Origin: an uncultured Roseobacter sp.
GTDB lineage: Bacteria; Pseudomonadota; Alphaproteobacteria; Rhodobacterales; Rhodobacteraceae
NCBI RefSeq assembly: GCF_947493125.1
Contig: NZ_CANLQB010000009.1
Coordinates: 1 to 64,000 of the forward strand
Direction of reading: 5' to 3'
Length of the DNA stretch: 64,000 bases
Translations under genes and position numbers: made by a program
The notes under the pieces: generated by a model
Told to the model about the DNA's origin: nothing
Database searches by the model: none
What the model saw: the letters and a program-made list of their open reading frames with translations, nothing else
Part shown: one piece after another, positions 15,307 to 31,686 of the stretch
Numbering within the stretch: the stretch's first letter is position 1
How the letters are laid out: the number at the start of each line of letters is the position of its first letter

Positions 15307-15336
15307 TTGACAGCTGGCACGTGCCGATCCTATCAT
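15307..15336 (+). promoter_or_regulatory. Sigma70-type promoter of the pyridine-catabolic operon
   Basis: TTGACA at 15307-15312 and TATCAT at 15331-15336, separated by 18 bases, make the best -35/-10 pair seen in the window. The expected transcript start near 15343 leaves a leader of under 30 bases before GTG 15371. The -10 box touches the operator-like site that starts at 15336, as expected for steric repression. Confidence 0.65.
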
Positions 15337-15347
15337 TTGCATACGAA
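15336..15347. promoter_or_regulatory. Putative MarR operator, site 1
   Basis: TTTGCATACGAA, a near-palindrome overlapping the -10 box of the operon that contains the MarR gene. It shares the pattern TTYGYAYRCNAA with three other sites at 24069, 24173 and 25133, each in front of a different unit of the same catabolic region. That the MarR protein at 22439 binds here is inferred from position and recurrence. Confidence 0.55.
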
Positions 15348-15370
15348 CAAATTTATGCGTGAGGTCTCGC

Positions 15371-16201
15371 GTGAGCTATTTCGCTCCGGACAGTCTGACG
15401 GACGCCTTGAGCCACCTGGCCGGTGAGCCGGGGCAGATTGTGGCGGGGGGCACGGATGTCTATCCCGCCCGGGGCCGGAGACCGGCGGCCGAGCGCTATC
15501 TGGATGTCACGCGGATTGCCGGGTTTACGGAGGTGTCGCACGGGCCGGAGGGCAGCCGATTTGGTGCCGCGGTCACCTGGAGCGATATCGTCAGAGCGGA
15601 TCTGCCGCCGGTGTTTGACGGGCTCAAGGCCGCGGCGAAAGAGGTCGGCAGCATTCAGATCCAGAACGCGGGCACGCTGGCCGGGAATATCTGCAATGCG
15701 TCACCTGCCGCCGACGGGGTGCCCGCGCTGATGACGCTCGACGCGCAGGTCGAGATCGCCAGCGCTGCAAGAGGAGTGCGGCGGGTGCCGCTCGAGGCGT
15801 TCCTGACCGGTGTGCGCCGGACGGCTCTGGAGGCGGATGAGTTGGTCACGGCCATCTGGATCCCTGCACAGCCGGACGGCATGCGCGGCGCCTTTGAGAA
15901 GCTTGGCGCGCGCCGGTATCTGGTGATTTCCATCTGCATGACCGCCGCGGCGGTCGCGGTTGATGCGCAGGGCCGGATTTCCGACGCCCGGATTGCGGTT
16001 GGTGCCTGTTCCGCCGTCGCGCAGCGCTTGCGCTCATTGGAGCAGGAGGTGATCGGCCTGTCGCCCGACGCGGTCACTGTGACCGAGACCCACCTCGCGC
16101 CGCTCTCCCCGATTGACGACGTTCGCGGCGCGGCGTCCTACAGGTTGGATGCGGTGGGCGCCCAGATTGTCCGGGCGATCCGGGCGGCGGGCACCCGATG
16201 A
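15371..16201 (+). CDS. Molybdenum hydroxylase FAD-binding subunit (CoxM/XdhA-like; nicotinate dehydrogenase type)
   Basis: 276 residues of the FAD-binding domain 5 / CO dehydrogenase C-terminal type. The flavin-contacting segments are IVAGGTDVYPA near the start and QIQNAGTLAGNICNASPAADG about one third in. It would pass electrons from the FeS domain of the next gene product to an acceptor. GTG 15371 is chosen: a GAGG ribosome site lies 6 bases upstream; GTG 15359 is the alternative. The stop overlaps the next start (ATGA). As first gene of the operon it lies directly behind promoter and operator site 1. Substrate is inferred from the downstream reductase and amidohydrolase, not from this sequence. 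Confidence 0.88.
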   Translation: MSYFAPDSLTDALSHLAGEPGQIVAGGTDVYPARGRRPAAERYLDVTRIAGFTEVSHGPEGSRFGAAVTWSDIVRADLPPVFDGLKAAAKEVGSIQIQNAGTLAGNICNASPAADGVPALMTLDAQVEIASAARGVRRVPLEAFLTGVRRTALEADELVTAIWIPAQPDGMRGAFEKLGARRYLVISICMTAAAVAVDAQGRISDARIAVGACSAVAQRLRSLEQEVIGLSPDAVTVTETHLAPLSPIDDVRGAASYRLDAVGAQIVRAIRAAGTR

Positions 16202-18933
16202 GCAAGGATTTCATCCATCCGACGCTGGCCTTCCGGCTCAATCAGGCGGATGTGATGGCCGCGCCGGCGCCCGGCCAGCGCCTGTCCGAAGTGTTGCGCG
16301 AGGAGCTAGGAGCCCGGGATGTGAAGGTCGGCTGCGATGCCGGCGATTGCGGGGCCTGCACTGTCCTGCTCGATGGCCAGCCCGTCTGTGCCTGCCTGAC
16401 GCCGGCGCATCAGGTGCAGGGCCGCGAGGTCGACACCTGGGCCGGGCTTTATGAAAGCGATCCGACGGCCAAAGCTCTGGTGCAGAGCTTCAGGGGCCAC
16501 GGGGCGGCGCAATGCGGGATCTGTACGCCAGGGATGATGATCTCGGCGACGGCGCTTCTGCGCGCGCGGACCGCGCCATCGGAAGAGGAGGTGCAGGAGG
16601 CTCTGGGTGGCGTGCTGTGCCGCTGTACCGGGTATCGCAAGATCATTGACGCCGTGATGGGCGTGCCTGCGATGACAACGGAAGAGAGCGACCGGGTCGG
16701 GGCGCCGATCCCGCATGTGGATGCGGAGGCGAAGATGTCGGGCGCGCTGGCCTATGGCGACGACGTGGCCCACGCAGGCTGCCCGGAGATCGTTGTGATC
16801 CGCGCGCCATATCACCATGCGAGGTTCGACTTCGGCGATCTGGACGGCTTTGCGGCGGCGCATGGCCTCGTGGCGATCCTGACGGCGGCGGATGTGCCGG
16901 GGCGGAACCTCTTCGGCGTGATCCCGCAATTCGTCGACCAGCCTGTCTTTGCAGAAGGGACGACGCGGTTTCGCGGCGAGGCGGTGGCGGCCATCGTCGC
17001 CGCGCCGGAGATCCTCGCAGGGCTCGACCTTGAGAGCTTCCCTGTGACCTGGCACGCTCTCCCGGCTGTGAACGACATACAATCCGCGCAGGCGCCCGAG
17101 GCGGCAGAGCTTCACGCGGGCCGCGCGCAGAATGTGATGTGCGGCGGGTTTGTCGCGCGCGGGGATGCCGAGGCTGCGCTGGCACAGGCCGATGTGGTGG
17201 TCGAGGGGCGGTTCCGCAGCGGATTTGTCGAACATGCCTATATCGAGCCCGAGGCCGGTTTTGCCCAGGTGGTCGAGGGCCGCCTTGAAGTGCACGCCTG
17301 CACGCAGGCGCCGATCATGGACCGCGAGGCGCTGGAGGTCATTCTGGGGATGGACGCCTCCCGGATCCGGATCGTGCCCACGGGCATCGGAGGGGGCTTT
17401 GGCTCCAAACTGGATCTGACGGTGCAGCCGTTTCTGGCCATCGCGGCACTCAAGACCGGGCAGCCGGTGCGGATGCGGTATGCGCGCGTGGAGTCGATGC
17501 AAAGCTCGACCAAGCGCCATCCGTCGGACATCACGCTGCGGATCGGCGCAGACCGGGATGGCACGATCCGCGGTGTCAGCTTCTATGGAGAGTTCGACAC
17601 CGGTGCCTATGCCAGCTGGGGGCCGACCGTGGCCAATCGTGTGCCGGTGCATGCCTCCGGGCCATATGCGGTGACGGATTACCGCGCAGAATCCAAGGGC
17701 ATCCATACCAACAACCCGCCTGCCGGGGCCTTTCGGGGCTTTGGCGTGCCGCAGTCCGCCATCGCCCAGGAGAGCCTGTTTGACGAGCTGGCGGAGAAAC
17801 TGGGCCTCGATCCTCTGGAGTTCCGGATAGCCAATGCGCTGGAGAACGGCGTGCCGACGGTTTGCGGGCAGGTGTTCGAGCAGGGCGTGGGGATCAAGGC
17901 CTGCCTGACGGCCCTGCGGCCTGCCTGGGCGCGGGAGCGTGCCGAGGCGGCGGCCTTCAACAGCCGCAACGCGACGCTGAAGCGTGGGGTCGGCGTTGCG
18001 GGGGGCTGGTACGGCTGCGGGAATACGTCCTTGCCGAACCCGTCGACGATCAAGTCAGGGATCACGCCCGATGGTCGCGTCGTGCTGCATCAGGGCGCCG
18101 TGGACATCGGGCAGGGCTCGAACACCGTGATCACCCAGATCTTTGCGCAGGCGCTTGGCGTGCCGGTGGCGCAGGTCGCGCGGGTCGGGGCCGATACGGA
18201 TATCACGCCGGATGCCGGCAAGACCTCGGCCTCGCGCCAGACCTATGTGTCGGGCAACGCGGCTGAGCGGTCCGGCGCGGCGTTGCGGGCGCAGATTCTG
18301 GAGAAGATCAACGTGGGCCCGGATGCTGCCCTGAGCCTCGCGCCCGGTGCGGTGCTGGCCGAAGATGCGGAAGGGGTGCACGCGCTGGATCTCTCGGAGA
18401 TGCCCTTGGATGCTCATGGCTATGTGTTCTGTGCCGAGGAAACCTATGATCCGCCGACGGAACCGCTGGATGCCAATGGCCAGGGCGCGCCTTACGCGCA
18501 GTTTGGCTATGCGGCCCATCTGGCGGTGGTCGAGGTCGACACCGAGATGGGCACGGTCAGACCGGTCCGCTTTGTCGCGGCGCATGATGTGGGCCGGGCC
18601 ATCAACCCGATGCTGGTGGAGGGCCAGGTGCACGGCGGAATTGCGCAGGGGCTCGGCATGGCGCTGATGGAAGAATACATCCCCGGACGCACCGAGAACC
18701 TGCACGACTATCTGATCCCGACCATCGGGGATGTGCCGCCCATCGAGACGCTGATCATCGAAGAACCCGACCCGCATGGCCCCCATGGGGCGAAGGGGTT
18801 GGGCGAGCATGTGCTGATCCCAACGGCGCCCGCACTGCTCAATGCGATCGAGGCGGCGACGGGTGTGCGGCTAACGCAGGTGCCCGCCACGCCTGGGCGG
18901 GTGCGCGCGGCCATTCTGAAAGGCGCGTCATGA
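16198..18933 (+). CDS. Molybdenum hydroxylase, fused [2Fe-2S] and molybdopterin subunit
   Basis: 911 residues. The N-terminal about 155 residues carry the two [2Fe-2S] sites: CDAGDCGAC with a following Cys (plant-type), then CGIC and CRC in LCRCTGYRKI. The remainder is the xanthine-dehydrogenase large subunit with TGIGGGFGSKLD, AFRGFGVPQSA, the GQGSNT pterin-contact region and GAKGLGEH containing the active-site Glu. It would hydroxylate an N-heteroaromatic ring next to nitrogen using water, for example nicotinate to 6-hydroxynicotinate. Fusion of FeS and Mo parts in one chain differs from the four-subunit E. barkeri nicotinate dehydrogenase. Both ends overlap neighbours by ATGA. The exact substrate is inferred from context. 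Confidence 0.88.
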   Translation: MSKDFIHPTLAFRLNQADVMAAPAPGQRLSEVLREELGARDVKVGCDAGDCGACTVLLDGQPVCACLTPAHQVQGREVDTWAGLYESDPTAKALVQSFRGHGAAQCGICTPGMMISATALLRARTAPSEEEVQEALGGVLCRCTGYRKIIDAVMGVPAMTTEESDRVGAPIPHVDAEAKMSGALAYGDDVAHAGCPEIVVIRAPYHHARFDFGDLDGFAAAHGLVAILTAADVPGRNLFGVIPQFVDQPVFAEGTTRFRGEAVAAIVAAPEILAGLDLESFPVTWHALPAVNDIQSAQAPEAAELHAGRAQNVMCGGFVARGDAEAALAQADVVVEGRFRSGFVEHAYIEPEAGFAQVVEGRLEVHACTQAPIMDREALEVILGMDASRIRIVPTGIGGGFGSKLDLTVQPFLAIAALKTGQPVRMRYARVESMQSSTKRHPSDITLRIGADRDGTIRGVSFYGEFDTGAYASWGPTVANRVPVHASGPYAVTDYRAESKGIHTNNPPAGAFRGFGVPQSAIAQESLFDELAEKLGLDPLEFRIANALENGVPTVCGQVFEQGVGIKACLTALRPAWARERAEAAAFNSRNATLKRGVGVAGGWYGCGNTSLPNPSTIKSGITPDGRVVLHQGAVDIGQGSNTVITQIFAQALGVPVAQVARVGADTDITPDAGKTSASRQTYVSGNAAERSGAALRAQILEKINVGPDAALSLAPGAVLAEDAEGVHALDLSEMPLDAHGYVFCAEETYDPPTEPLDANGQGAPYAQFGYAAHLAVVEVDTEMGTVRPVRFVAAHDVGRAINPMLVEGQVHGGIAQGLGMALMEEYIPGRTENLHDYLIPTIGDVPPIETLIIEEPDPHGPHGAKGLGEHVLIPTAPALLNAIEAATGVRLTQVPATPGRVRAAILKGAS

Positions 18934-20414
18934 AAGACGATCTGAAGCCCGAGAAGATCCGCTGCGATGCCTGCCCGGTGATGTGCTACATCGCTGACGG
19001 CAAATCCGGCGCCTGTGACCGCTATGCCAACCACGGCGGGACGCTGGTGCGCCTGGACCCGCTGACGATCATCCAGAATGCGGATCAGAAGCTGGTGCCC
19101 TTCATGCCGAGCGGGACGGAGGATCCGTGGGATGGCGACATCATCAAGGGCGGTCGCCCCTTCGTGACGGCGGTGGGCGCGGGCACCACGTACCCTGATT
19201 ACAAGCCCGCCCCCTTTATCGTGAGCCAGGATGTCGAGGGGGTCGACATGGTTACGGTCGTGACCGAAGGCATTTTCAGCTATTGCGGTGTGAAGGTGAA
19301 GATCGACACCGACCGTCATATCGGCCACGAATGCGATGTCGTGCGGGTCGAGGGCGAGCCGATCGGGCATGTGACGACCTCGGAGTACGGCTCCAAGATG
19401 CTGTCGCTTGGCGGCGTCGAACACCTCACCGGCGGGTCCAAGAAGGAAGGGCGCGTGACCTGCGATGCGCTGATGCGGCTTTGCAACCGCGAGGCGGTGA
19501 CCATGGTCATCGGTGAGCCGGGGCATGAGACCGAGCTGGTGGTGGAGGCGGGCAAACCGCCGATCATCAATGGCGTGACCGAGAACCTGATGCGCGTGGG
19601 CTGCGGCTCGGCCACCATCGGGATGTTCCCCAAGCAGTGGATCGGCCATGTGGATGAGGTGGTTGTCGTCGATGACCATATCACCGGTGTGCTGTCCGAG
19701 CATGAGACCGGCAAGCAGCTGGATGTGCCGGCCACGGGGATCAAGATCAAGGGCCGCCGGTCGACGCCCGGGCGCTACTTTCAGGTGGCCGAGCCCGGCA
19801 CCGGCTGGGGTGGCACGGATATCGAGGATCCGCTGACCATCCTTGGGCCGTTCAATCCCAAGATCGCCTGGGAGGGGTTGCGGCTGTTGATGGTGTCGAC
19901 CACCGGGGAGCAATACGCCTATTTCGAGCTGGACGCCGATCTGGCGCCCCGGCCCAGGCCTGCGCCCGCACAGCTGAAGGCCTCGGCGGATCTGATCGCG
20001 GAGAACTGCGAGCCGTCGGTCTGTTCGGTGCTCTTCATGGGTGGCGCGGGTGGCAGCCTGCGGGCGGGGGTGACGGAAAACCCGGTGCGGCTGACCCGCT
20101 CGGTCAAGGAGAGCCTGACCCATGTGTCCTGCGGCGGGGCCGATGCCTATGTCTGGCCGGGTGGCGGGATCACGGTTATGGTGGATGTGCTGGACATGCC
20201 GACACAGTCGTTCGGATATGTTCCGACCCCGGCGCTGGTGGCGCCGATCGAGTTCACCCTGCGCGTCAGCGACTATGCCGCTCTGGGCGGTCATGTGGAT
20301 CACATGAGGGCTGCGGATGACGTGAACCGCGACGCGGCCCGTCACGTCGCACAGAACGACAGCGCGCATGACCCGATGGCGCGGCGCAACTTTCGCTGGT
20401 CCGGGAAGGGGTGA
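18930..20414 (+). CDS. 6-hydroxynicotinate reductase homologue
   Basis: 494 residues. I recognise it as the family of Eubacterium barkeri 6-hydroxynicotinate reductase, which reduces 6-hydroxynicotinate to 1,4,5,6-tetrahydro-6-oxonicotinate with ferredoxin and carries FeS clusters and a covalent flavin. Near the N-terminus C12, C15, C19 and C29 form a C-x2-C-x3-C-x9-C site. Further Cys residues occur in EGIFSYCGVKVK, VTCDALMRLC, RVGCGSATIG, ENCEPSVC and HVSCGGADAY. GCGSAT resembles, but does not match, the S/T-G-A-T motif that ApbE enzymes flavinylate. It overlaps the Mo subunit (ATGA) and the UPF0280 gene (GTGA). A reductase on a related pyridone acid is the main alternative. Confidence 0.75.
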   Translation: MKDDLKPEKIRCDACPVMCYIADGKSGACDRYANHGGTLVRLDPLTIIQNADQKLVPFMPSGTEDPWDGDIIKGGRPFVTAVGAGTTYPDYKPAPFIVSQDVEGVDMVTVVTEGIFSYCGVKVKIDTDRHIGHECDVVRVEGEPIGHVTTSEYGSKMLSLGGVEHLTGGSKKEGRVTCDALMRLCNREAVTMVIGEPGHETELVVEAGKPPIINGVTENLMRVGCGSATIGMFPKQWIGHVDEVVVVDDHITGVLSEHETGKQLDVPATGIKIKGRRSTPGRYFQVAEPGTGWGGTDIEDPLTILGPFNPKIAWEGLRLLMVSTTGEQYAYFELDADLAPRPRPAPAQLKASADLIAENCEPSVCSVLFMGGAGGSLRAGVTENPVRLTRSVKESLTHVSCGGADAYVWPGGGITVMVDVLDMPTQSFGYVPTPALVAPIEFTLRVSDYAALGGHVDHMRAADDVNRDAARHVAQNDSAHDPMARRNFRWSGKG

Positions 20415-21280
20415 GCGGCGTGGGGCTGACCGCGCATCTTCTGCCCGACGGGCAGCGCCTGCATCTGCAGCACGGGCCTATTGATCTGATCATCGGCGCG
20501 GAGGGGCAGCGGCGGGTGGCGTTCGAGGCGGCGGTGGCCCGTTTTGAGACCATTCTGGACGCATTGGTCGCCGAGTTGCCGGCCCTGCGGGCCGAGATGT
20601 CTCAGGCCCTGGCGATGCCGACGGGGGCTGTTGCCCGGCGGATGCACAGGGCGGCGCTGGGCGTGCCGGGGGATGTCTTCTTCACCCGCATGGCCGCCGT
20701 TGCGGGTGCGGTGGCGGATGAGGTTCTGGCGGCAATGGTGTCGCAGGCCGAGCTGGCGCGGGCCTTTGTGAACAACGGCGGCGACATCGCGCTGCATCTC
20801 GAGGGGGATGCGCAGTTTCGGCTGATGATGTCGGACCATACCGGGCGCGGCTTGGGCCGAATTGTCCTGCGCGCGGGGGAAGGTGTCGGCGGCATCGCCA
20901 CCAGTGGGCGGCACGGGCGCAGCCACAGCCTCGGGATCGCCGACAGCGTCACGGTACTCGCGCCCTGCGCCGCGCAGGCGGATGTGGCGGCCACCCTGAT
21001 TGCCAACTCGGTTGATCTGCCGGGCCACCCGGCCATACGCCGCCGTCCGGCGAACGCGCTGATGGAGGACAGCGACCTGGGCGCGCGGCCTGTGGTGGCG
21101 GGCTGCGGACCCCTGACCGACGCCGAGTGCGCCCGAGCCTTGGGCGCGGGCCGCCGCGTCGCGGATGCCTTCACCGCGGCGGGTCTGATCACCGACGCCG
21201 CCCTGTTCCTGCATGCCCATGCCGATCTGACAGACGGGCCGCGGCTTTCCGTGGCCGACAAGGAGCCCGCCCATGCCTGA
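20411..21280 (+). CDS. UPF0280 family (ApbE-like fold) protein
   Basis: 289 residues. The family is structurally related to the flavin transferase ApbE and is seen here as AFVNNGGDIALHLEGDAQF followed by GIATSGRHGRSHSLGIADSVTVLA, the equivalent of the ApbE ligand-binding core. No signal peptide is present, so it is cytoplasmic, unlike periplasmic ApbE. It is translationally coupled to the reductase gene (GTGA overlap), and the E. barkeri reductase is known to hold a covalent flavin. A flavin-attachment or maturation role for the reductase is therefore a reasonable inference. The next gene overlaps by 8 bases. Confidence 0.82.
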   Translation: MSGVGLTAHLLPDGQRLHLQHGPIDLIIGAEGQRRVAFEAAVARFETILDALVAELPALRAEMSQALAMPTGAVARRMHRAALGVPGDVFFTRMAAVAGAVADEVLAAMVSQAELARAFVNNGGDIALHLEGDAQFRLMMSDHTGRGLGRIVLRAGEGVGGIATSGRHGRSHSLGIADSVTVLAPCAAQADVAATLIANSVDLPGHPAIRRRPANALMEDSDLGARPVVAGCGPLTDAECARALGAGRRVADAFTAAGLITDAALFLHAHADLTDGPRLSVADKEPAHA

Positions 21281-21854
21281 CATTCTCCTCCGCAAGACGG
21301 CCTTTTCGGTCGAAGAGATCTTTCACGAGGGTGGCCCGGCGCCCGACCGCGTGCTGAAACGGGCGGCGGGCATCGCCGTGATCGAGAACCCCTTCGCCGG
21401 CAGGTATGAGCCCGATATCCAGTGGTTCATGGATGACCTCAAACCGCTGGGGCTGTCGATGGCGCAGCGGCTGGTGGACCTTTTGGGCGGGGCTGCACAG
21501 GTCGAGGGTTATGGCAAGGGCGCGCTGGTCGGCGAGGCGGGCGAGCTTGAGCACGGCGCGCTCTGGCATGTGCCGGGCGGCTATGCGATGCGGGAACTGC
21601 TGGACAATTCCAACGCCATCGTGCCGTCCACCAAGAAGGTCGTGGGCGTGGGCGGGCGGCTGGATGTGCCGATCACCCATATCAACGCCTCCTACGTGCG
21701 CAGCCATTTTGACGCGATGGAGGTGGGTTTGAGCGATGCGCCCAAAGCGGGTGAGATGGCGCTGGTGCTGGTCATGACCACGGGGCCGCGGATCCACGCG
21801 CGGGTGGGTGGTCTGGCCGTCGCTGATATCGAAGGAAAGGATGGTCTCAGATGA
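21273..21854 (+). CDS. AA_synth (DUF1185) family protein, copy 1
   Basis: 193 residues of the amino acid synthesis family (PF06684), whose biochemical role is not established. Shared signatures are AVIENPFAGRYE, YGKGALVGEAGELEHGA, IVPSTKKV and INASYVRSHFDAMEVGLSDAPKAGE. It is followed by a paralogue (ATGA overlap) with the same motifs. Position between reductase and enamidase genes suggests a step on the ring-reduced intermediate, or a subunit of a heteromeric enzyme with copy 2. This is inference. Confidence 0.82.
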   Translation: MPDILLRKTAFSVEEIFHEGGPAPDRVLKRAAGIAVIENPFAGRYEPDIQWFMDDLKPLGLSMAQRLVDLLGGAAQVEGYGKGALVGEAGELEHGALWHVPGGYAMRELLDNSNAIVPSTKKVVGVGGRLDVPITHINASYVRSHFDAMEVGLSDAPKAGEMALVLVMTTGPRIHARVGGLAVADIEGKDGLR

Positions 21855-22435
21855 GTGCGAAGATCCGAAAAATCGCCGTCACTGTGGAAGAAACGCACAT
21901 CGAGATTGGTCGTGCCATCTCTCCGGCGACCCGCAAGGCCGTCGCGGCGGCGGTGATCGAAAACCCTTTTGCAGGGCACTATGAAGAGGACCTGAGCCCG
22001 CTGATGGAGATCGGTGCGGAGCTGGGCGCACTTCTGGGCCGGAGATGCGTGGAGGCGCTGGGGATCACGCCGGAACAGGCGGAGAGCTATGGCAAAGCCG
22101 CGATGGTCGGCGAGAATGGTGAGCTGGAGCATGCCGCCGCGCTGCTGCACCCCAAGCTCGGCGCGCCGCTGCGCAAGGAGGTTGAGAAGGGTGCTGCCCT
22201 TGTGCCCTCATCCAAGAAGATGGGCAGCCCCGGTCAGGTTCTGGACGTCCCACTGGGCCACAAGGACGCGGCCTATGTGCGCAGCCATTTCGACGGGATC
22301 GAGGTCCGGCTCAATGATGCGCCGCGGGCCAATGAGATCCTCGTGGCTGTCGCGGTCACCGACAGCGGGCGCCCCTTGCCACGGGTGGGGGGCCTGACGC
22401 ATGAAGAGGCCGAGGGCAAAGACGGATTGCGATAG
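21851..22435 (+). CDS. AA_synth (DUF1185) family protein, copy 2
   Basis: 194 residues, paralogous to the preceding gene: AVIENPFAGHYEEDL, YGKAAMVGENGELEHAA, LVPSSKKM, AAYVRSHFDGIEVRLNDAPR, and the shared C-terminal EGKDGLR. Copy 2 has HKD where copy 1 has HIN before the AxYVRSHFD block, so the pair may have diverged in active-site detail. The MarR gene begins 3 bases after its stop. Confidence 0.82.
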   Translation: MSAKIRKIAVTVEETHIEIGRAISPATRKAVAAAVIENPFAGHYEEDLSPLMEIGAELGALLGRRCVEALGITPEQAESYGKAAMVGENGELEHAAALLHPKLGAPLRKEVEKGAALVPSSKKMGSPGQVLDVPLGHKDAAYVRSHFDGIEVRLNDAPRANEILVAVAVTDSGRPLPRVGGLTHEEAEGKDGLR

Positions 22436-22438
22436 GCC

Positions 22439-22882: not shown

Positions 22883-22885
22883 CGG

Positions 22886-24049: not shown

Positions 24050-24068
24050 CGCGCCCTCCGCATATTTG

Positions 24069-24080
24069 TTTGTATGCCAA
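24069..24080. promoter_or_regulatory. Putative MarR operator, site 2
   Basis: TTTGTATGCCAA, the second copy of the TTYGYAYRCNAA pattern, 20-31 bases upstream of the enamidase start. A minus-strand TTGACG at 24103-24098 could be the -35 box of that gene, which would put the site at or after the -10 region. No good -10 hexamer was identified. Confidence 0.5.
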
Positions 24081-24172
24081 CATACTCCGCGACTGCGCGT
24101 CAAGCCAAATAGCGCGGCGCATCCAAGCTTGACAGCGGTGGGACGGGCTCGCTAAGACTGGTATAAAGTCGT

Positions 24173-24184
24173 TTGTATACGAAT
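24173..24184. promoter_or_regulatory. Putative MarR operator, site 3
   Basis: TTTGTATACGAA, the most symmetric copy of the repeated site, directly behind a TATAAA (24163-24168) and 29 bases before the ferredoxin reductase start. Sites 2 and 3 face each other across the 160-base divergent intergenic region between the enamidase and reductase genes. Confidence 0.55.
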
Positions 24185-24213
24185 GAAATATCGATAAAGC
24201 GAAAGGAGAGATC

Positions 24214-25023
24214 ATGGCCCTGGATTCCACGCAGACATCGGACGGGTTCCCGATCCCCGCCGGGGTCTTCGCCCAGACGGTCACGGAGGTCGCGCATTAC
24301 ACCGACCGGCTCTTCAGGTTCCGCATCACGCGGCCTGCGTCCTTTCGGTTCCGGTCCGGTGAGTTCTTGATGATCGGGCTGCCCAATGCGGAAAAGCCGG
24401 TGTTTCGCGCCTATTCCGTGGCCTCGCCCAGCTGGGACGACGCGTTGGAGTTCTATTCGATCAAGGTGCCGGGCGGGCCGCTGACCGAGCACCTGCAGAA
24501 GATCAGGGAGGGCGACACCGTGCTGATGCGGAAGAAACCGACGGGTACCCTGGTCCTTGATGCGCTGTTGCCGGGCAAGCGGCTCTGGATGTTCTCGACC
24601 GGAACGGGCATCGCACCCTTTGCGAGCCTGATCCGCGACCCCGAGACCTATGAGAAATTCGACGAGGTGATCCTGACGCAGACCTGCCGAACGGTGGCCG
24701 AGCTGCGCTATGGGCAGGATCTGGCGGCGGCGGTGAAGGAGGACCCGCTTGTGGGCGAGATGGCGCAGCGGCTGCGCCACTATTGCACGGTCACCCGCGA
24801 GGACTTTCCGGTGCGGGGCCGGATCACCGATCTGATGGCGTCGGGCCAGCTCTTCAACGATCTGGGCGTTGACCCGATCACGCCCGAGAGAGACCGCGGG
24901 ATGATCTGCGGATCAATGGAAATGCTGAAGGACACCAAAGCCGCCCTGGAGGGATTTGGACTGGTCGAAGGGTCGAACAACCGGCCCGACACTTTTGTCG
25001 TCGAGCGCGCGTTCGTTGACTAG
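24214..25023 (+). CDS. fpr: Ferredoxin--NADP reductase
   Basis: 269 residues of the bacterial FNR type. FAD-binding segment is FRAYSVASPSWDD (RxYS motif) and the nucleotide-binding strand is FSTGTGIAPFASLIRD, followed by LTQTCRT and MICGSMEM. It transfers electrons between NADP(H) and ferredoxin or flavodoxin. In this cluster it could supply reduced ferredoxin to the 6-hydroxynicotinate reductase homologue or electrons to the Rieske oxygenase. No ferredoxin gene lies nearby. The C-terminal ending VVERAFVD resembles Fpr of Rhodobacter. GAAAGGAGAG is the ribosome site. This may be a second, pathway-specific Fpr copy. Confidence 0.9.
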   Translation: MALDSTQTSDGFPIPAGVFAQTVTEVAHYTDRLFRFRITRPASFRFRSGEFLMIGLPNAEKPVFRAYSVASPSWDDALEFYSIKVPGGPLTEHLQKIREGDTVLMRKKPTGTLVLDALLPGKRLWMFSTGTGIAPFASLIRDPETYEKFDEVILTQTCRTVAELRYGQDLAAAVKEDPLVGEMAQRLRHYCTVTREDFPVRGRITDLMASGQLFNDLGVDPITPERDRGMICGSMEMLKDTKAALEGFGLVEGSNNRPDTFVVERAFVD

Positions 25024-25132
25024 GATCAGAGCCCGTCTGGTGTGACGGTCGAGCGGGTTCTGGCCCGCTGTCGATATGGTTTTGAGATCAACGCCCAAGG
25101 GATAACCACACCGCAGCACAGCACCAATAACA

Positions 25133-25144
25133 TTCGTACGCTAA
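25133..25144. promoter_or_regulatory. Putative MarR operator, site 4
   Basis: TTCGTACGCTAA, the most divergent copy of the pattern but matching site 2 at most positions when extended by three bases (AACA). A TTGACA at 25155-25160 lies just downstream and may be the -35 box of the Rieske/ABC operon, implying that translation starts at ATG 25217. Weaker than sites 1-3. Confidence 0.4.
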
Positions 25145-25216
25145 CAATTTTTGTTTGACAGAAAATGATTAATGTCCCTCAATGTTCTGAAAAAGCATCA
25201 GGGAGCGGAAGACGCA

Positions 25217-26284
25217 ATGGGGTTCGTGCGAAACAGCTGGTACGTAGCGGGATGGTCGACGGAGTTCGCCCATTCGGTACAGCCGGTGGAAATTGTCGGC
25301 ATCCCCCTCGTGATGTTTCGGGACAGCCGTGGCGCCTTGCACGCGCTGGAAGACCGCTGCCCGCACCGGCTGTTGCCGCTGTCCAAGGGCAAGCTGGTCG
25401 GCGATGCGATCCAATGCGGCTATCACGGCATGACCTTCGATGGCTTCGGCACCTGCGTCCGGGTGCCCGGGCAGGACAACACCCCAAAGAGTGCGAATGT
25501 CCCGTCCTTCCCGGTGGAAGAGCGGCACGGTGTTGTCTGGGTCTGGATGGGCGACCCCGCCGCCGCCGACCCGGCCGCCATTTTCGATATTCCCGAGCTG
25601 TCGCAGGACGGCTGGCACCTGCATCACGGCGGGCACCTGCATATCGAGGCGCATTATCTGAATGTGGCTGAAAACCTGGTGGACCCGGCGCATGTGAGCT
25701 TTGTGCATCCCACGACGCTGGGCAATGCCTCCTCGGAGGACATCCCGGTGCATGTCTCCACCTCCGGCTCGATCATCCGGGCCTGGCGCTGGATCCGCGA
25801 TGCGCCCCCCGTCGGGTTCTTCCAGGCCTTTGGCGGCTTCGACGGCAATGTCGACCGCTGGCACTATTACGATTTGCATCTGCCCTCGACGGCGGTGATC
25901 GATTTTGGCAGCATCGACACATCGGAGAACTGCCCCGAGGACGAGCGCCATCGGGGCGTCCGCGTCTTTGCCCTGCACTTCGTCACGCCGGTGAATGAGA
26001 ACGAGACCATCGACCACTGGATGCACCTGCGCAACACCGCCGTGGGGGATGAGGCTGCCTCGGCTCGGATGGACGCCTTGCTGGCGGCGGCCTTTCAGGA
26101 AGACAAGGACATCCTCGAAGCGATCCATATTGCAGAGCAACGGCCCCAGACCCGCAGACCCGTGCGGATCGCCATCGACAAGGGCCCCAATGTCTACCGC
26201 AAGAGAATCAGAGAGCTGATCGAAGCGGAAGCTGTCGAAGATCTGGGCGAGCCCGTCGCCCCTGTCTTCGTCCAACATGACTGA
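25217..26284 (+). CDS. Rieske-type ring-hydroxylating oxygenase / demethylase alpha subunit
   Basis: 355 residues of the VanA-like family. N-terminal Rieske site: CPHR and, 16 residues later, CGYHG (C-x-H ... C-x2-H). Catalytic mononuclear iron site: NLVDPAHVSFVH with the bridging Asp and two His. Such enzymes use O2 for ring hydroxylation or O/N-demethylation. ATG 25217 (MGFVRNSWYVAGW) has a GGGAGCGG ribosome site and lies behind a possible -35; ATG 25172 would add 15 residues. It is first in an operon with an ABC importer. In this context it might act on an N-methylated pyridinium acid or a ring-opened product; substrate is not readable from sequence. Confidence 0.87.
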   Translation: MGFVRNSWYVAGWSTEFAHSVQPVEIVGIPLVMFRDSRGALHALEDRCPHRLLPLSKGKLVGDAIQCGYHGMTFDGFGTCVRVPGQDNTPKSANVPSFPVEERHGVVWVWMGDPAAADPAAIFDIPELSQDGWHLHHGGHLHIEAHYLNVAENLVDPAHVSFVHPTTLGNASSEDIPVHVSTSGSIIRAWRWIRDAPPVGFFQAFGGFDGNVDRWHYYDLHLPSTAVIDFGSIDTSENCPEDERHRGVRVFALHFVTPVNENETIDHWMHLRNTAVGDEAASARMDALLAAAFQEDKDILEAIHIAEQRPQTRRPVRIAIDKGPNVYRKRIRELIEAEAVEDLGEPVAPVFVQHD

Positions 26285-26311
26285 CGTCATCGCCAACACG
26301 GAGAGAACTCT

Positions 26312-27523
26312 ATGAAGCGCAAGACCTTTTTGAAAACCCTGCTGGGCGTGGCCACTCTGGCCGCGCTGCCGCTGGCCAAGGTGGCGCATGCCGAAGACCC
26401 GATCATCATCGGCGAGATCAACCACTACAAGCGCCTCGCGGCCTTTGCCGAGCCCTACAAGAAAGGGATCGAGCTGCGGCTCAAGGAGGTGAATGCCGCC
26501 GGGGGCGTTCTGGGCCGCCCGATTGAATTCGTCTTCCGGGACGACCAGGGCAAGCCCGGTGAGGCGATCAAGATCGCCGAAGAGCTGATGACCAGTGAAG
26601 GCGCTGTGATGCTGACCGGGACGATCCTGTCGAACGTGGGCCTCGCCATCTCCTCCTACGCGGCGGAGAAGGGTTATGTCTATCTCGCCTCCGAGCCGCT
26701 GGCCGATGCGCTGGTCTGGAGTGCGGGCAACCCCTATACCTTCCGCCTGCGCGCCTCGACGTACATGCAGGCCTCGATGCTGGCCGAGGCCGCGGCCAAG
26801 ACCGATGCCGTGAAATACGCCACCATCGCGCCGAACTACGCCTATGGCAAAGATGCCGTGGCGGCCTTCAAATCGGCGCTGACCAAGCTGCGCCCGGACG
26901 TGGAGTTCGTCGCAGAGCAATGGCCGGCGGTCTTCAAGATCGACGCGGGCGCCGAGGTTCAGGCGCTGGAGCGCGCCAAGCCCGACGCCATCTACAACGT
27001 GACCTTCGGCCCGGATCTTGCGAAATTCGTCCGCGAAGGCACTGATCGCGGGCTTTTTGACGGGCGCAACGTCTATGGTCTGCTGTCTGGCGAGCCGGAG
27101 TACATCGACCCGCTTGGCGAGGAGGCCCCCGAAGGTTGGACCGTGACGGGCTATCCCTGGTATGATCTTGACAGCGGGCCCGAAGGCGAATTCGTGGCGG
27201 CCTATCAGGCCGAATACGATGATCACCCCCGCCTTGGGTCTCTGGTCGGATACATGACCGTGCAGTCCATCGTCGCAGCCCTGGAAAAAGCCGGATCGAC
27301 CGAGACGGAGGCGATCCGTGCGGCCTTTGAGGATCTGCAGCTGGCGACACCCATGGGTGAGATCACCTACCGCTCCATCGACAATCAATCGACCGCGGGT
27401 GCCTATGTCGGCACGACGACGGTGCGCGACGGGCGCGGCGTGATGGTCGACTGGGAGTACAAGGACGGCGCGGACTACCTGCCGTCGGATGAAGAGGTGC
27501 AGGCGCTGCGGCCTGCCGAATAG
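26312..27523 (+). CDS. ABC transporter periplasmic substrate-binding protein, branched-chain amino acid type
   Basis: 403 residues with a Sec signal peptide (LLGVATLAALPLAKVAHA). It is a type I periplasmic binding protein of the LivJ family: GIELRLKEVNAAGGVLGRPI, then DDQGKPGEAIKIAEELM, then YGKDAVAAFK. It follows the Rieske gene by 28 bases and precedes the permease. LivJ-type proteins bind amino acids, but many bind aromatic acids or amides. The operator context suggests uptake of the compound degraded by this cluster. Confidence 0.9.
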   Translation: MKRKTFLKTLLGVATLAALPLAKVAHAEDPIIIGEINHYKRLAAFAEPYKKGIELRLKEVNAAGGVLGRPIEFVFRDDQGKPGEAIKIAEELMTSEGAVMLTGTILSNVGLAISSYAAEKGYVYLASEPLADALVWSAGNPYTFRLRASTYMQASMLAEAAAKTDAVKYATIAPNYAYGKDAVAAFKSALTKLRPDVEFVAEQWPAVFKIDAGAEVQALERAKPDAIYNVTFGPDLAKFVREGTDRGLFDGRNVYGLLSGEPEYIDPLGEEAPEGWTVTGYPWYDLDSGPEGEFVAAYQAEYDDHPRLGSLVGYMTVQSIVAALEKAGSTETEAIRAAFEDLQLATPMGEITYRSIDNQSTAGAYVGTTTVRDGRGVMVDWEYKDGADYLPSDEEVQALRPAE

Positions 27524-27608
27524 GTCTCGGCGCCTCCGGTCGCGCCAGGCGGTGGCGCGCGGCCGGACGCATCCTCTCACGATCTGAAATCGAACGCAGG
27601 TAGGCCTG

Positions 27609-29465
27609 ATGGAGTTTTTTGTCGCGCAGGTTCTGACAGGTCTGGCCAATGCCAGCTCCCTGTTTCTTGTGGCCTGCGGATTGTCGTTGATCTTTGGCGT
27701 CACGCGGATCGTGAACTTCGCGCATGGCAGCCTCTACATGATCGGAGCCTACACCGGTTACAGCCTCATGCAGGTGCTGCCGGGGGCGGTGGGGTTCTGG
27801 GGCTCGATCCTGATTGCGGGGCTTGTGGTGGGCCTCGTGGGGCTGCTCATCGAGATCCTGGTGCTGCGGCCCGTCTATCGCGCGCCGGAGCTTTTTCAGC
27901 TGGTGGCGACCTTCGGGGTGATCCTGGTGATCCAGGATCTGGCGCTGCTGATCTGGGGGCCGGAAGACCTGCTGGGTCCGCGCGCGCCGGGCCTGCGCGG
28001 TGTCGTGCGCATCATGGGCGAGCCGATCCCGAAGTACGACATTGCGCTGCTGATCATCACGCCTTTTGTCGCCGTGGCGCTCTGGTATCTGATCACCAAG
28101 ACCCGTCTGGGCGTGCTGGTTCGGGCCGCCACACAGGACCGGGAGATGGTCGGTGCGCTTGGCGTCAATCAGTCCTGGCTCTTTACCGGCGTGTTCGCGC
28201 TTGGCTCGGCGCTCGCGGGGCTGGGCGGCGCGCTGCAACTGCCCAAGGGCGGGGCCGATCTGCTGATGGATTTCAACATCCTCGCGCCTGTTTTCGTAGT
28301 CGTGGTGATTGGCGGCATGGGCTCGTTGCCCGGGGCCTATCTGGCGGCGATCATCATCTCGGTGCTGAACGTCTTCGGCGTGTCCTACCTGCCGGAATCG
28401 ACGCTGGTGCTGATGTTCGTCGTGATGATCGTGGTGCTGATGATCCGCCCCTATGGGCTCTTTGGCCGCGAGGAAGTCGCCGGAGAGCATGGGCAGGTCG
28501 GCGAGCCGGAACGACCCATCAAACCCGCCTCCAACACCGTGCGAATGGTGGTCGCGGCAGGCTTGGTGCTGCTGGCACTGTTGCCGCTCTATGGCTCGCA
28601 CTTCTCACTGGTGCTGATCACCGATGTGCTCATCTTCTGCCTCTTCGCCGCCTCCCTGCACTTCCTGCTCGGCACGGGCGGGCTGGTCAGCTTTGGCCAT
28701 GCGGCCTACTATGGCGGTGGGGCCTATGTGGCGGCCCTGCTCGTGACCCATGTGAACAGCCCGATGGAGCTGGCCTTCCTCTTGGCCCCCGTCGGCGCCG
28801 GGCTGGTCGCGCTGGCCATTGGCTGGGTCTGCCTGCGCCTGACCGGCGTCTATTTCGCCATGCTGACCCTCGCCTTTGCCCAGCTGATCTGGAGCCTTGT
28901 GTTCCAGTGGGGCGATGTCACCGGCGGCGATGACGGTCTGGTCAACATCTGGCCTGCGGAGTGGCTCAAGGCCACGACGGTCTATTTCTATTTCACGCTC
29001 GTGATTGCCGTGTCGGGGATCCTGATCCTGCGCCATGTGGCGCATTCGCCCTTCGGTTACGCCCTGCGCGCGGCGCGTGACAGTGAGCGGCAGGCCGAAG
29101 CAACCGGCATCGACACCCGCAAAGTCCGCCTTCTGGCCTTTGGGTTCGCCGGGTTCATGGGCGGCTTGGCGGGCGCCCTTTTCGTCTTTTCCAAGGGCAG
29201 CGTGTTTCCCAATGAGCTGGAGATCGCCCGCAGCTTCGACGCGCTGATCGTGGTCTTCCTCGGCGGTGTCAAAACGCTCGCGGGCGGGGTCGTGGGTGCG
29301 GGCTTCTTCAAAGGGATAGAAGAGGTGCTGATCCGTTTTGAATACTGGCGCCTGCTGATGGGTCTGTTGATCATCTTCGTCGTGATCGCGGCGCCGGATG
29401 GCGTGGTCGGCTCCCTGCGCAAGGGGCTGGAGCGCGTCGGGCTGCGCAAGGTGGAGGATCAGTGA
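27609..29465 (+). CDS. Fused LivH-LivM type ABC transporter permease
   Basis: 618 residues with two concatenated permease modules. Residues about 1-285 are LivH-like (ANASSLFLVACGLSLIFGVT, IVNFAHGSLYM) and about 310-610 LivM-like (LLGTGGLVSFGHAAYYGGGA, DSERQAEATGIDTRKVRLLA with the EAA-like loop, FLGGVKTLAGGVVGAGFF). The joining segment near residue 290 is polar (EEVAGEHGQVGEPERP). Together it replaces the usual two separate subunits. Its end overlaps the LivG-type ATPase gene. Confidence 0.92.
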   Translation: MEFFVAQVLTGLANASSLFLVACGLSLIFGVTRIVNFAHGSLYMIGAYTGYSLMQVLPGAVGFWGSILIAGLVVGLVGLLIEILVLRPVYRAPELFQLVATFGVILVIQDLALLIWGPEDLLGPRAPGLRGVVRIMGEPIPKYDIALLIITPFVAVALWYLITKTRLGVLVRAATQDREMVGALGVNQSWLFTGVFALGSALAGLGGALQLPKGGADLLMDFNILAPVFVVVVIGGMGSLPGAYLAAIIISVLNVFGVSYLPESTLVLMFVVMIVVLMIRPYGLFGREEVAGEHGQVGEPERPIKPASNTVRMVVAAGLVLLALLPLYGSHFSLVLITDVLIFCLFAASLHFLLGTGGLVSFGHAAYYGGGAYVAALLVTHVNSPMELAFLLAPVGAGLVALAIGWVCLRLTGVYFAMLTLAFAQLIWSLVFQWGDVTGGDDGLVNIWPAEWLKATTVYFYFTLVIAVSGILILRHVAHSPFGYALRAARDSERQAEATGIDTRKVRLLAFGFAGFMGGLAGALFVFSKGSVFPNELEIARSFDALIVVFLGGVKTLAGGVVGAGFFKGIEEVLIRFEYWRLLMGLLIIFVVIAAPDGVVGSLRKGLERVGLRKVEDQ

Positions 29466-30244
29466 TGAGCGCGGTTCTTGAGACCAGGGGGCTGACACGG
29501 CACTTCGGCGCGATTGTTGCGGTTGACGATGTCTCCTTCCAGTTGCACAGGGGCGAGCTGCTGGCCCTGATCGGCCCGAATGGCGCGGGCAAGAGCACGT
29601 GTTTCAACATGCTGATGGGGCAGCTGAAACCGACCGAAGGCCAGGTGCTGCTCGACGGGGAGGAGATCACCGGACTGCTGCCGCGACAGGTCTGGCGCAA
29701 GGGGGTGGGCCGCACCTTTCAGATCACCGCGACCTATGCGTCGATGACGGTGGTGGAAAACGTGCAGATGGCGCTGCTGTCCCATCACGGCGAGATCCTG
29801 CGGTTTCTGCCCTTCGCCACGCGGCAGTACCGGGAGGAGGCGCTGGCGCTGCTGGATCTGGTCAGCATGGCGGATCAGGCGGATCGTCATTGCGCTGTGC
29901 TGGCCTATGGCGATCTCAAACGCATGGAGCTGGCAATTGCCCTCGCGCATGACCCCAAGGTTTTGCTGATGGATGAACCCACGGCAGGCATGGCACCGAA
30001 AGAGCGCGTGGGTCTGATGAAACTGACCGCGGATATCGTGCGCTCGAAGGGTGTCAGCGTCCTCTTCACGGAGCATGACATGGACGTGGTCTTTGCCCAT
30101 TCCCACCGGATCATGGTGCTGAACCGCGGCGCGTTGATCGCCGAAGGCACGGCCGAGGAGATCCGCACCAATACGACGGTTCAGGAGGTCTATCTCGGCG
30201 GCGGCACCGTCTTTGCCGATGAGGGGGGTGCGGCCCATGCTTGA
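29465..30244 (+). CDS. ABC transporter ATP-binding protein, LivG type
   Basis: 259 residues. Walker A is GPNGAGKST; Walker B is VLLMDEP; the signature is YGDLKRMELAIAL instead of LSGGQ, which is typical of LivG. ATG 29465 shares one base with the permease stop (TGATG); the GTG at 29462 is an alternative. It couples ATP hydrolysis to uptake with the LivF-type partner that follows. Confidence 0.92.
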   Translation: MSAVLETRGLTRHFGAIVAVDDVSFQLHRGELLALIGPNGAGKSTCFNMLMGQLKPTEGQVLLDGEEITGLLPRQVWRKGVGRTFQITATYASMTVVENVQMALLSHHGEILRFLPFATRQYREEALALLDLVSMADQADRHCAVLAYGDLKRMELAIALAHDPKVLLMDEPTAGMAPKERVGLMKLTADIVRSKGVSVLFTEHDMDVVFAHSHRIMVLNRGALIAEGTAEEIRTNTTVQEVYLGGGTVFADEGGAAHA

Positions 30245-30938
30245 GGTCGACCGCATCAACAGCTTCTACGGCAAGGCCCATGTTCTGCGCGATCTCAGCC
30301 TTGACGTGCCCAAGGGTGAGGTGGTCGCACTTCTGGGCCGCAATGGTGCCGGTAAGTCGACGACGATGAAATCGGTGATGCAGATCGTGCGGACCGCCTC
30401 CGGCTCGGTCCGCTTCGAAGGGCAGGAGATTTCCAGACTGCCGCCGCACAAGATCGCCAAACTCGGCGTCGGGTATGTGCCCGAAGACCGCCGGGTTTTT
30501 TCCGACCTGACCGTGGTCGAGAACCTGATCGTCGGCTACCAGCCGCCGCGGGAGGGCTCCGTCACCTGGACCCGGGATATGCTGTTCGACCTGTTCCCGA
30601 ACCTGGCAGAGCGGCGCAACAACCGCGGCAAGGCGCTGTCGGGCGGCGAGCAGCAGATGCTGACCATCGCGCGGACGCTGATGGGCAACCCCTCCCTGGT
30701 GTTGCTGGACGAGCCCAGCGAAGGCGTTGCGCCCGTGATCGTCGAGCAGATGGTGCAGGTGATCACCCAACTCAAATCGGAGGGGCTGACGGTTCTTCTG
30801 TCCGAGCAGAACCTGCATTTTGCCCAGGCGGTGGCAGATCGCGCCGTGATCATCGAAAGCGGCGCGCGGGTTTACCACGGAACCCTGGCCGAGCTGACTG
30901 CAAATCCGGACATCAGGGATGCGTATCTCGCCGCGTAG
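30237..30938 (+). CDS. ABC transporter ATP-binding protein, LivF type
   Basis: 233 residues. Walker A is GRNGAGKST, signature LSGGEQQMLTIAR, Walker B LVLLDEPSEG. The start at 30237 overlaps the LivG gene end by 8 bases and begins MLEVDRINSFYGK as in LivF proteins. It is the last gene of the Rieske/importer operon. Confidence 0.92.
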   Translation: MLEVDRINSFYGKAHVLRDLSLDVPKGEVVALLGRNGAGKSTTMKSVMQIVRTASGSVRFEGQEISRLPPHKIAKLGVGYVPEDRRVFSDLTVVENLIVGYQPPREGSVTWTRDMLFDLFPNLAERRNNRGKALSGGEQQMLTIARTLMGNPSLVLLDEPSEGVAPVIVEQMVQVITQLKSEGLTVLLSEQNLHFAQAVADRAVIIESGARVYHGTLAELTANPDIRDAYLAA

Positions 30939-31609: not shown

Positions 31610-31686
31610 GGTCCCTTAGCTCAACTGGATAGAGCAGCTGACTTCTAATCAGCAGGTTGAGGGTTCGAGTCCTTCAGGGATCGCCA
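31610..31686 (+). tRNA. tRNA-Arg(UCU)
   Basis: A 77-base cloverleaf including an encoded CCA. The acceptor stem pairs GGTCCCT with AGGGATC, the D stem GCTC with GAGC, the anticodon stem GCTGA with TCAGC, and the T stem GAGGG with CCTTC around TTCGAGT. The anticodon loop CTTCTAA places TCT at 31644-31646, reading AGA. The discriminator base is G. No second copy of its 3' end, which would suggest an integrated element, was seen in the window. Confidence 0.96.

Follow-up and report, generated by a model that had tools for sequence, protein, structure and literature searches.

The cluster and its proposed function

We analyzed a stretch of 64,000 nucleotides from an uncultured Roseobacter sp. (contig NZ_CANLQB010000009.1; hereafter the window), which carries an intact gene cluster for pyridine-carboxylate catabolism at positions 15359 to 30938. 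As a whole, this cluster is best explained, with reasonable probability, as an aerobic nicotinate catabolic regulon with a trigonelline front end. Its homologies make it highly probable that the core is a nicotinate pathway through tetrahydro-6-oxonicotinate (THON). Nicotinate is the acid form of vitamin B3, and trigonelline is its N-methyl derivative. The core is known in kind and has already been printed for aerobes; the Rieske front end is new, and several parts have been exchanged, as described below.

In the pathway that we propose, a Liv-type importer would take up a zwitterionic pyridine carboxylate, and a Rieske oxygenase, receiving NADPH electrons via the reductase Fpr or a ferredoxin, would oxidize the N-methyl group of trigonelline to yield formaldehyde and nicotinate. 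A molybdenum (Mo) hydroxylase would convert nicotinate to 6-hydroxynicotinate, which a 6-hydroxynicotinate reductase homologue (Hnr) would reduce to THON; this protein has a single Cys4 iron-sulfur site and probably carries a flavin attached covalently by a UPF0280 protein. An enamidase would open the ring to give 2-formylglutarate and ammonia, and the carbon would exit by the glutarate route of Azorhizobium, for which a glutaryl-CoA dehydrogenase gene lies elsewhere in the genome. Three promoters would be under the control of a MarR protein resembling those of nic clusters. The sequence itself establishes the genes and their homologies, motifs, linkage and part exchanges, from which we derive the reactions, the substrate, the flavin link and the regulation as proposals.

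The source genome comprises 4.83 Mb in 32 contigs, and the window lies on contig 9. An earlier note, made from the DNA letters, had described a hybrid system of anaerobic-type nicotinate enzymes and a Rieske oxygenase, and every gene that it named is present and open where it had been placed. The term hybrid, however, oversells the cluster, since the core is a single route and the Rieske oxygenase a separable front end. The genes run from the FAD subunit, the fused [2Fe-2S]/Mo subunit, Hnr, UPF0280, two AA_synth proteins and MarR to the enamidase on the opposite strand, followed by Fpr, the Rieske oxygenase, the binding protein, a fused permease and two ATPases:

15336–15352, + strand: MarR-type operator-like site upstream of the FAD subunit, TTTGCATACGAACAAAT (pattern search and relatives)
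15359–16201, + strand: FAD subunit of the Mo hydroxylase, nicotinate 6-hydroxylase candidate (PF00941, PF03450)
16198–18933, + strand: fused [2Fe-2S]/molybdopterin subunit of the Mo hydroxylase (Fer2, Fer2_2, MoCoBD_1, MoCoBD_2)
18930–20414, + strand: Hnr, without ferredoxin domain (homology, Cys motif, tree, model)
20411–21280, + strand: UPF0280, ApbE-like, candidate flavin transferase for Hnr (NF003322, 351.5 bits, cut-off 290; hhalign to ApbE)
21273–21854, + strand: AA_synth (DUF1185) protein 1 (PF06684)
21851–22435, + strand: AA_synth (DUF1185) protein 2, near SPO0826 (PF06684; 360 bits to 2QTP)
22439–22882, + strand: MarR-family regulator (domain match; identity to MarR beside NicA-type genes)
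22886–24049, − strand: enamidase (2VUN, E=2.5e-104; conserved His/Glu/Asp)
24064–24080, − strand: operator-like site at the enamidase promoter (pattern search)
24172–24188, + strand: operator-like site upstream of Fpr (pattern search)
24214–25023, + strand: ferredoxin/flavodoxin-NADP reductase, Fpr (FAD_binding_6, NAD_binding_1; NF008178, 127.9 bits, below the cut-off of 390)
25172–26284, + strand: VanA-type Rieske oxygenase, predicted trigonelline N-demethylase (Rieske and VanA_C; nearest solved relative DdmC, 3GB4; linkage)
26312–27523, + strand: importer periplasmic binding protein (PF13458; tree)
27609–29465, + strand: fused Liv-type permease (PF02653, two stretches)
29462–30244, + strand: importer ATPase 1 (PF00005, PF12399)
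30213–30938, + strand: importer ATPase 2 (PF00005)

The reductive nicotinate core

The Mo hydroxylase, Hnr and the amidohydrolase correspond to the first three steps of nicotinate fermentation of the Eubacterium barkeri type, as the earlier note had proposed. The amidohydrolase, there called enamidase-like, deserves a firmer name: it matches the E. barkeri enamidase (2VUN) with 352.8 bits, E=2.5e-104 and 45% identity, while the next solved match scores 28 bits, and H67, H69, E164, H193, H220 and D276 (2VUN numbering), which we take to be metal-binding, are invariant in five aligned sequences. By this closest homology and these metal-ligand-type residues, we name it an enamidase. Bacterial and archaeal contigs were then scanned with the enamidase alignment, and the best 80 loci among the matches listed were kept. 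The best came from Acetobacterium bakii (83% identity to the E. barkeri protein), and Hnr, Mo hydroxylase, UPF0280 and AA_synth genes recurred around the enamidases in many of the longer loci.

The nicotinate fermentation cluster of E. barkeri was reportedly described by Alhapel in 2006. Read in A. bakii (locus L040), a cluster of this type resembles the window in its Mo hydroxylase, Hnr, enamidase, UPF0280 and AA_synth genes, and differs in its split Mo subunits, where the window has a fused [2Fe-2S]/Mo subunit. A further difference is the ferredoxin domain found in Hnr of the anaerobe-type group (see below), which the window Hnr lacks. The A. bakii cluster also contains separate FAD and [2Fe-2S] subunits, an Hgd-like (hydroxyisobutyrate-dehydrogenase-like) dehydrogenase, a B12-binding protein, and PrpF, PEP_mutase and aconitase-family genes.

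The Azorhizobium reductive route, which the note had offered as a parallel, proved apt. According to the available part of PMC3511419, the same gene set occurs in Azorhizobium caulinodans, Bradyrhizobium, R. palustris and strain SG-6C, and the printed cluster combines an ABC importer and two unknown proteins with a homologue that shares 42% identity with the Hnr of E. barkeri. The aerobic THON clusters of A. caulinodans, Bradyrhizobium and SG-6C shown there share with the window the first three steps, the ABC importer and the two conserved unknown proteins. With hydroxylase, Hnr, enamidase and ABC importer together, the window has the make-up of an aerobic THON nicotinate cluster. The cluster of Azorhizobium doebereinerae (L106), a congener of the species whose biochemistry was studied, differs from it: its hydroxylase is NicB-like rather than of the FAD type, and no Rieske gene was found up to 10 kb from its enamidase.

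For comparisons between loci, we used 101 proteobacterial Hnr loci including the window (100 without it), presence meaning presence within the fetched stretch, and an anaerobe-type group (L040-L095 and L098), which consists mainly of Firmicutes and Desulfobacterota, judging by the record titles, and is labeled by locus range, not by oxygen relations. The gene set recurs far too regularly for chance: UPF0280 was found in 99 of the 100 proteobacterial loci, missing only from L112, whose contig is short; 97 have AA_synth and 83 a Mo hydroxylase of the window type. A NicB-like hydroxylase replaces this FAD type in six loci (L033, L037, L106, L113, L162 and L163); none has both, and 11 show neither in the stretch.

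Hnr is single-copy in the source genome, and its closest named relatives in the plasmid collection belong to Sulfitobacter (up to 80% identity). No Pfam or NCBIfam family matched it at E≤0.001. It is 38-47% identical to the Hnr proteins beside anaerobe-type enamidases (40-47% for the 24 aligned anaerobe-type rows), including 43% to that of A. bakii L040 across the 391 residues that the fetched stretch covers. Similarity to the Hnr of nicotinate fermentation clusters thus extends over the full length as judged through these relatives, which stand for the E. barkeri Hnr in the comparison. A quick tree of 105 of the 135 sequences, with long branches flagged and the anaerobe-type rows thinned to every fifth, placed the window protein in a proteobacterial clade with A. 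doebereinerae, separated by a long branch from the anaerobe-type rows. The grouping with characterized reductases, on which the note had staked its proposal, therefore holds through stand-ins for the E. barkeri and A. caulinodans proteins.

Both the proteobacterial and the anaerobe-type Hnr keep a CX2CX3CX9C site, Cys12, Cys15, Cys19 and Cys29 each being present in 134 of 135 sequences (the exception, L040, is cut at the stretch edge). By contrast, an N-terminal 2x[4Fe-4S] ferredoxin domain with two CX2CX2CX3C motifs was found in all 43 scorable anaerobe-type sequences (of 45) and in none of the 99 scorable proteobacterial ones (of 101), the window Hnr belonging to the proteobacterial branch. 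The structure model of Hnr is confident (pLDDT 86.2, pTM 0.84). A Foldseek search gave no match to solved structures at E≤0.001 and hence no functional hint, and the protein may possibly represent an unsolved fold.

The Mo hydroxylase consists of two subunits, with [2Fe-2S] and Mo parts fused, and so lacks the four-subunit, split-Mo organization of E. barkeri. Its fused subunit scored 250, 202 and 111 bits against chains A, B and D of nicotinate dehydrogenase (3HRD). The best single solved chain was, to the disadvantage of a nicotinate assignment, aldehyde oxidoreductase 1DGJ (382 bits), and all NCBIfam matches fell under the cut-off. Because the aldehyde oxidoreductase outscores the single 3HRD chains, homology does not settle the substrate of this enzyme.

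A probable exchange of the ring-opening enzyme

We then surveyed 292 genomes sampled from the order (cut-offs: Hnr, E≤1e-20; enamidase, E≤1e-60; HyuA, E≤1e-250; Rieske orthologue, E≤1e-110). Hnr was present in 77 genomes and an enamidase homologue in 42, of which 41 also bear Hnr. Among the enamidases of these Hnr genomes, 38 are at 76% identity or more and three (G121, G129 and G176) at only 48-50%; that of the Hnr-less genome G013 is at 43%. Of the 77 Hnr genomes, 37 hold a HyuA that shares at least 62% identity with the Sagittula protein. All 77 carry the one (41) or the other (37); only G206 has both, and no genome is without either. Hnr and HyuA are no more than 15 kb apart in 28 of 37 genomes, as are Hnr and enamidase in 33 of 41; in the remainder, the ring-opening gene is elsewhere in the genome. 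On the Hnr tree, the ring-opening label changes five times, at least four of these changes being forced by starred branches, compared to 31.6 changes in shuffles; locus L167 of G206, with both enzymes, stands outside all label groups.

Because HyuAB enzymes elsewhere carry out the ATP-dependent hydrolysis of lactams, HyuAB is probably a substitute THON hydrolase, exchangeable with the enamidase. Alternatively, the HyuAB clusters might act on a different isomer as substrate. A literature search on hydroxynicotinate with hydantoinase found nothing, most subscription papers and all preprints being outside its coverage. If true, the exchange of enamidase and HyuAB together with the loss of the ferredoxin domain would describe an anaerobic reductive pathway rebuilt for aerobic life, and testable functions would be assigned to the UPF0280 and HyuAB genes.

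The Rieske oxygenase and the importer

The Rieske oxygenase has Rieske and VanA_C domains, and its nearest solved relative is the dicamba O-demethylase DdmC (3GB4). The Rieske motif (C63-H85) and D171/H174/H179 are intact in the window protein, and both CXH..CX2H and DX2HX4H occur in all 28 Rieske sequences including it, which makes it a VanA-type enzyme. It shares with VanA and DdmC these domains and iron-binding motifs and differs in a genomic setting that would point to a pyridine N-methyl group.

An orthologue (at least 62% identity) was found in 14 of the 292 genomes. Twelve of these genomes carry Hnr, seven with the enamidase and five with HyuA, and in all twelve the Rieske gene lies within 15 kb of Hnr. 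Named examples of Rieske-bearing clusters are Sulfitobacter pontiacus DSM 110277 (L032) for the enamidase type and Sagittula stellata E-37 (L035) for the HyuAB type. The other two, G200 and G237, lack Hnr and are among only six of the 292 genomes with a NicC of the kind described below. None of the 209 genomes without Hnr and NicC has the Rieske orthologue (hypergeometric P=1e-8 for all 14 falling among 83, kinship ignored).

In G200 (L196), the stretch that holds the Rieske gene also encodes NicA-, NicB- and NicC-like proteins, a GbcB-like reductase and a sodium:solute symporter. The NicC is a clear 6-hydroxynicotinate 3-monooxygenase homologue (527.6 bits to 5EOW; next distinct enzyme, 198). 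In G237, NicC lies about 21 kb from the Rieske gene on the same contig, and a relative of the G200 reductase (43%) combines Fer2 with NAD-binding domains. NicC was also found outside the order, in G657, G477 and G552, which the Hnr survey leaves out and whose Rieske matches are at 61%, 45% and 39%, respectively. Rieske matches of 39-40% in G342, G361 and G410 were left aside. A NicC of at least 61% identity is thus present in all five Rieske genomes not chosen by Hnr, of which G200 supplied the query and G552 has a Rieske match of only 39%. At 60%, NicC was found in none of the 12 genomes with Hnr and Rieske, G021 holding a 38% homologue. On the Rieske tree, four NicC-linked copies fall in two places.

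The Pseudomonas-type NicABC pathway has the same first intermediate, and NicA/B/C-like genes are found in the company of MarR, importer and Rieske genes resembling those of the window, but NicC oxidizes 6-hydroxynicotinate instead of reducing it, and no NicC was found in the source genome at E≤1e-60. The importer follows the Rieske gene closely: in 21 of 28 loci, including that of the NicC genome G477, the Rieske gene is directly upstream of the binding-protein gene on the same strand, while the other seven show no binding-protein match in the stretch read (L032 and L145 being near copies). The importer family also adjoins genes annotated in nic-pathway order in Agrobacterium vitis and Roseomonas mucosa. 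Since the Rieske gene is linked to Hnr or NicC and the importer has such neighborhoods, the product of the Rieske oxygenase is likely nicotinate.

These data also bear on the idea that the Rieske oxygenase and importer are an unrelated neighbor without any pyridine role, which we consider improbable. Relatives of the cluster are plasmid-borne, so that linkage could arise without function. However, each of the 12 copies linked to Hnr is found at most 15 kb from it, whether the ring-opening partner is enamidase or HyuA, the Rieske gene recurs in NicC genomes, operator-like sites are shared, and the binding-protein tree (39 rows) tracks Rieske presence with three exceptions or changes, compared to 13.3 in shuffles.

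As to the substrate, we predict, by a small margin over an even chance, that the enzyme is a trigonelline N-demethylase. Trigonelline is favored over picolinate or homarine because the Rieske gene also accompanies NicC, a 6-hydroxynicotinate enzyme, and NicC is not known to use picolinate, the product of homarine demethylation. Several points weigh against trigonelline. The methoxybenzoate that DdmC demethylates is ortho-substituted, but trigonelline carries its substituents in meta position. The case for the proposed step is built on association, the enzyme family and natural occurrence, and other nicotinate precursors fit too. In addition, growth of Ruegeria pomeroyi was better with trigonelline than with homarine according to the available part of PMC8269262, and in the sampled loci nearest its SPO0826 (95.8%; L131 and L133) the fetched stretch holds no Rieske gene, nor do their genomes (G103 and G128) hold an orthologue at E≤1e-110. 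Trigonelline use by R. pomeroyi is therefore probably independent of the Rieske oxygenase.

One alternative leaves the core unchanged and has the Rieske oxygenase act on another nicotinate precursor, for example a pyridine carboxylate with an O-methyl or methyl substituent. What the association data establish is the product alone, nicotinate or 6-hydroxynicotinate, and the nearest solved relative is an O-demethylase; trigonelline, on the other side, is a natural N-methyl nicotinate that has been measured in marine particles (PMC8269262, as far as available). We hold this alternative to be unlikely, though it deserves attention. Degradation of picolinate or homarine, by Rieske demethylation, 6-hydroxylation, reduction and hydrolysis to 2-oxoadipate, seems to us considerably less probable still. 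It is chemically possible, the ortho substitution of the DdmC substrate would suit it, and in the available part of PMC8269262 homarine lies far above trigonelline in marine particles, although its correction (PMC10134881) states that homarine was overstated. Against it stand the occurrence of the same Rieske orthologue with NicA/B/C-like genes, including the clear NicC homologue, and the enamidase and Hnr relatives in the E. barkeri-type nicotinate cluster. The broad substrate list of the earlier note can be narrowed in this sense: nicotinate and trigonelline are retained, and picolinate and homarine are disfavored by the company of NicC.

In its available part, PMC8269262 (2021) gives by its own account the first detection of trigonelline in marine samples and cites a bacterial route that opens the ring first. 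This route, TgnA/TgnB (Perchat 2018, as cited there), possibly has the same starting compound as the window pathway and differs in opening the ring first, where we propose demethylation; the Tgn genes of the source genome were outside the searches made. No title on a Rieske trigonelline demethylase appeared in a literature search that covered neither most subscription papers nor any preprints. A demethylating Rieske route, if true, would tie trigonelline to the turnover of vitamin B3 by roseobacters and provide a marker gene.

A more far-reaching reading, which we put forward tentatively, would combine these elements. The Rieske and binding-protein genes would form a mobile module for trigonelline uptake and demethylation that serves Hnr with enamidase, Hnr with HyuAB, and NicABC; HyuAB would be an unrecognized ATP-dependent THON lactamase that repeatedly replaced the enamidase; aerobic Hnr would have shed its ferredoxin domain, and UPF0280 would be a dedicated flavin transferase.

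The Rieske gene is plasmid-borne in eight Sulfitobacter records of the plasmid collection (e.g., L032, NZ_CP084962.1), one of them from a diatom-containing seawater mesocosm. In some Hnr clusters showing no Rieske gene, a membrane protein of about 469 residues without Pfam match (L031:8146-9555; relatives in L033 and L036) lies near a different Liv-type importer and is perhaps another front end.

Electron supply and accessory proteins

Of 101 proteobacterial Hnr loci, 19 have Fpr in the fetched stretch, compared to none of 45 anaerobe-type loci. With the window excluded, it occurs in 18 of 100 proteobacterial loci, 13 of which show no Rieske gene in the stretch. Conversely, and to the detriment of Fpr as electron source of the front end, 12 of 17 Rieske loci show no Fpr there. 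Fpr as a reductase for the Rieske oxygenase only is thus unsupported. It more likely serves Hnr, or both Hnr and the Rieske oxygenase, and it may be the electron donor of Hnr in aerobes. Most loci show no Fpr nearby; therefore, another donor must serve there.

Hnr of E. barkeri is said, after the work of Alhapel in 2006, to carry a covalently bound flavin. Since UPF0280 is ApbE-like, it may attach such a flavin to the Hnr of the window. In profile-profile comparisons with ApbE by hhalign, UPF0280 reached 91.8% and 90.8% (controls, 0.2% and 0.4%), one comparison being made with L206 alone and the other with 12 rows, of which only L205 and L206 show clear motifs and the others are maybe in wrong frames. 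The NNGGD, ATSG and AD..AT motifs are kept. No Pfam family matched UPF0280 at E≤0.001, ApbE included, and hence we call it ApbE-like only. Thr229 of Hnr was considered as an ApbE-type flavin acceptor and ruled out, as 31 of 101 proteobacterial sequences have Ala at this position. Among anaerobe-type Hnr loci, 36 of 45 have UPF0280 and nine show none in the stretch, so that these counts do not argue for an obligate link to Hnr. Nothing was found in a literature search on UPF0280, most subscription papers and all preprints lying outside its coverage.

AA_synth genes also occur in most anaerobe-type loci with Hnr or enamidase. Because UPF0280 and AA_synth both accompany anaerobe-type Hnr loci, they do not serve an aerobic product only. 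The model of AA_synth protein 2 matched only DUF1185 chains at E≤0.001. The available part of PMC2954203 describes a chorismate-mutase-like fold for an AA_synth protein and suggests a role in amino-acid metabolism.

Fate of the ring-opened product

The earlier note had left the ring-opened product to the AA_synth proteins or to genes elsewhere. The former are unlikely handlers, as they occur beside Hnr or enamidase in the anaerobe-type group too, while the latter option gained support from a glutaryl-CoA dehydrogenase homologue on another contig (621 bits to 3GNC). A motif singled this protein out among 12 acyl-CoA dehydrogenase loci, and its top match is 4W9U (707 bits), named only acyl-CoA dehydrogenase. 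A glutaryl-CoA step in the Azorhizobium route was reportedly described by Kitts in 1992. Hgd, B12-mutase and dimethylmalate genes were absent among the scanned cluster genes, the rest of the genome not having been searched for them. The conversion of THON via glutarate is given in the available part of PMC3511419.

Regulation and genome setting

A 17-bp operator-like pattern was read from three promoters, at 15336, 24064 and 24172, which the MarR protein is inferred to control through these putative sites. Within the 64 kb, the pattern matches four times at up to two mismatches (0.01 expected), the fourth match being an overlapping reverse copy at 24167. As the pattern derives from the window's own three sites, this count is partly circular and speaks less strongly for a regulon. 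A matrix score of at least 12 was reached in 71 of 89 related loci, a figure that has no shuffle comparison, and in none of L108, L114 and L117. The window MarR resembles the MarR proteins encoded next to NicA-type genes in L196 (53% identity), L217 (51%) and L218 (44%).

The closest named gene relatives of the cluster are from marine bacteria, and relatives of the cluster were found on plasmids. Upstream of the cluster, an Mrr-type nuclease-domain protein (10975-11580) adjoins UvrB (11587-13794). A tRNA-Arg (31610-31686), about 670 bases past the last importer gene, is a possible island boundary.

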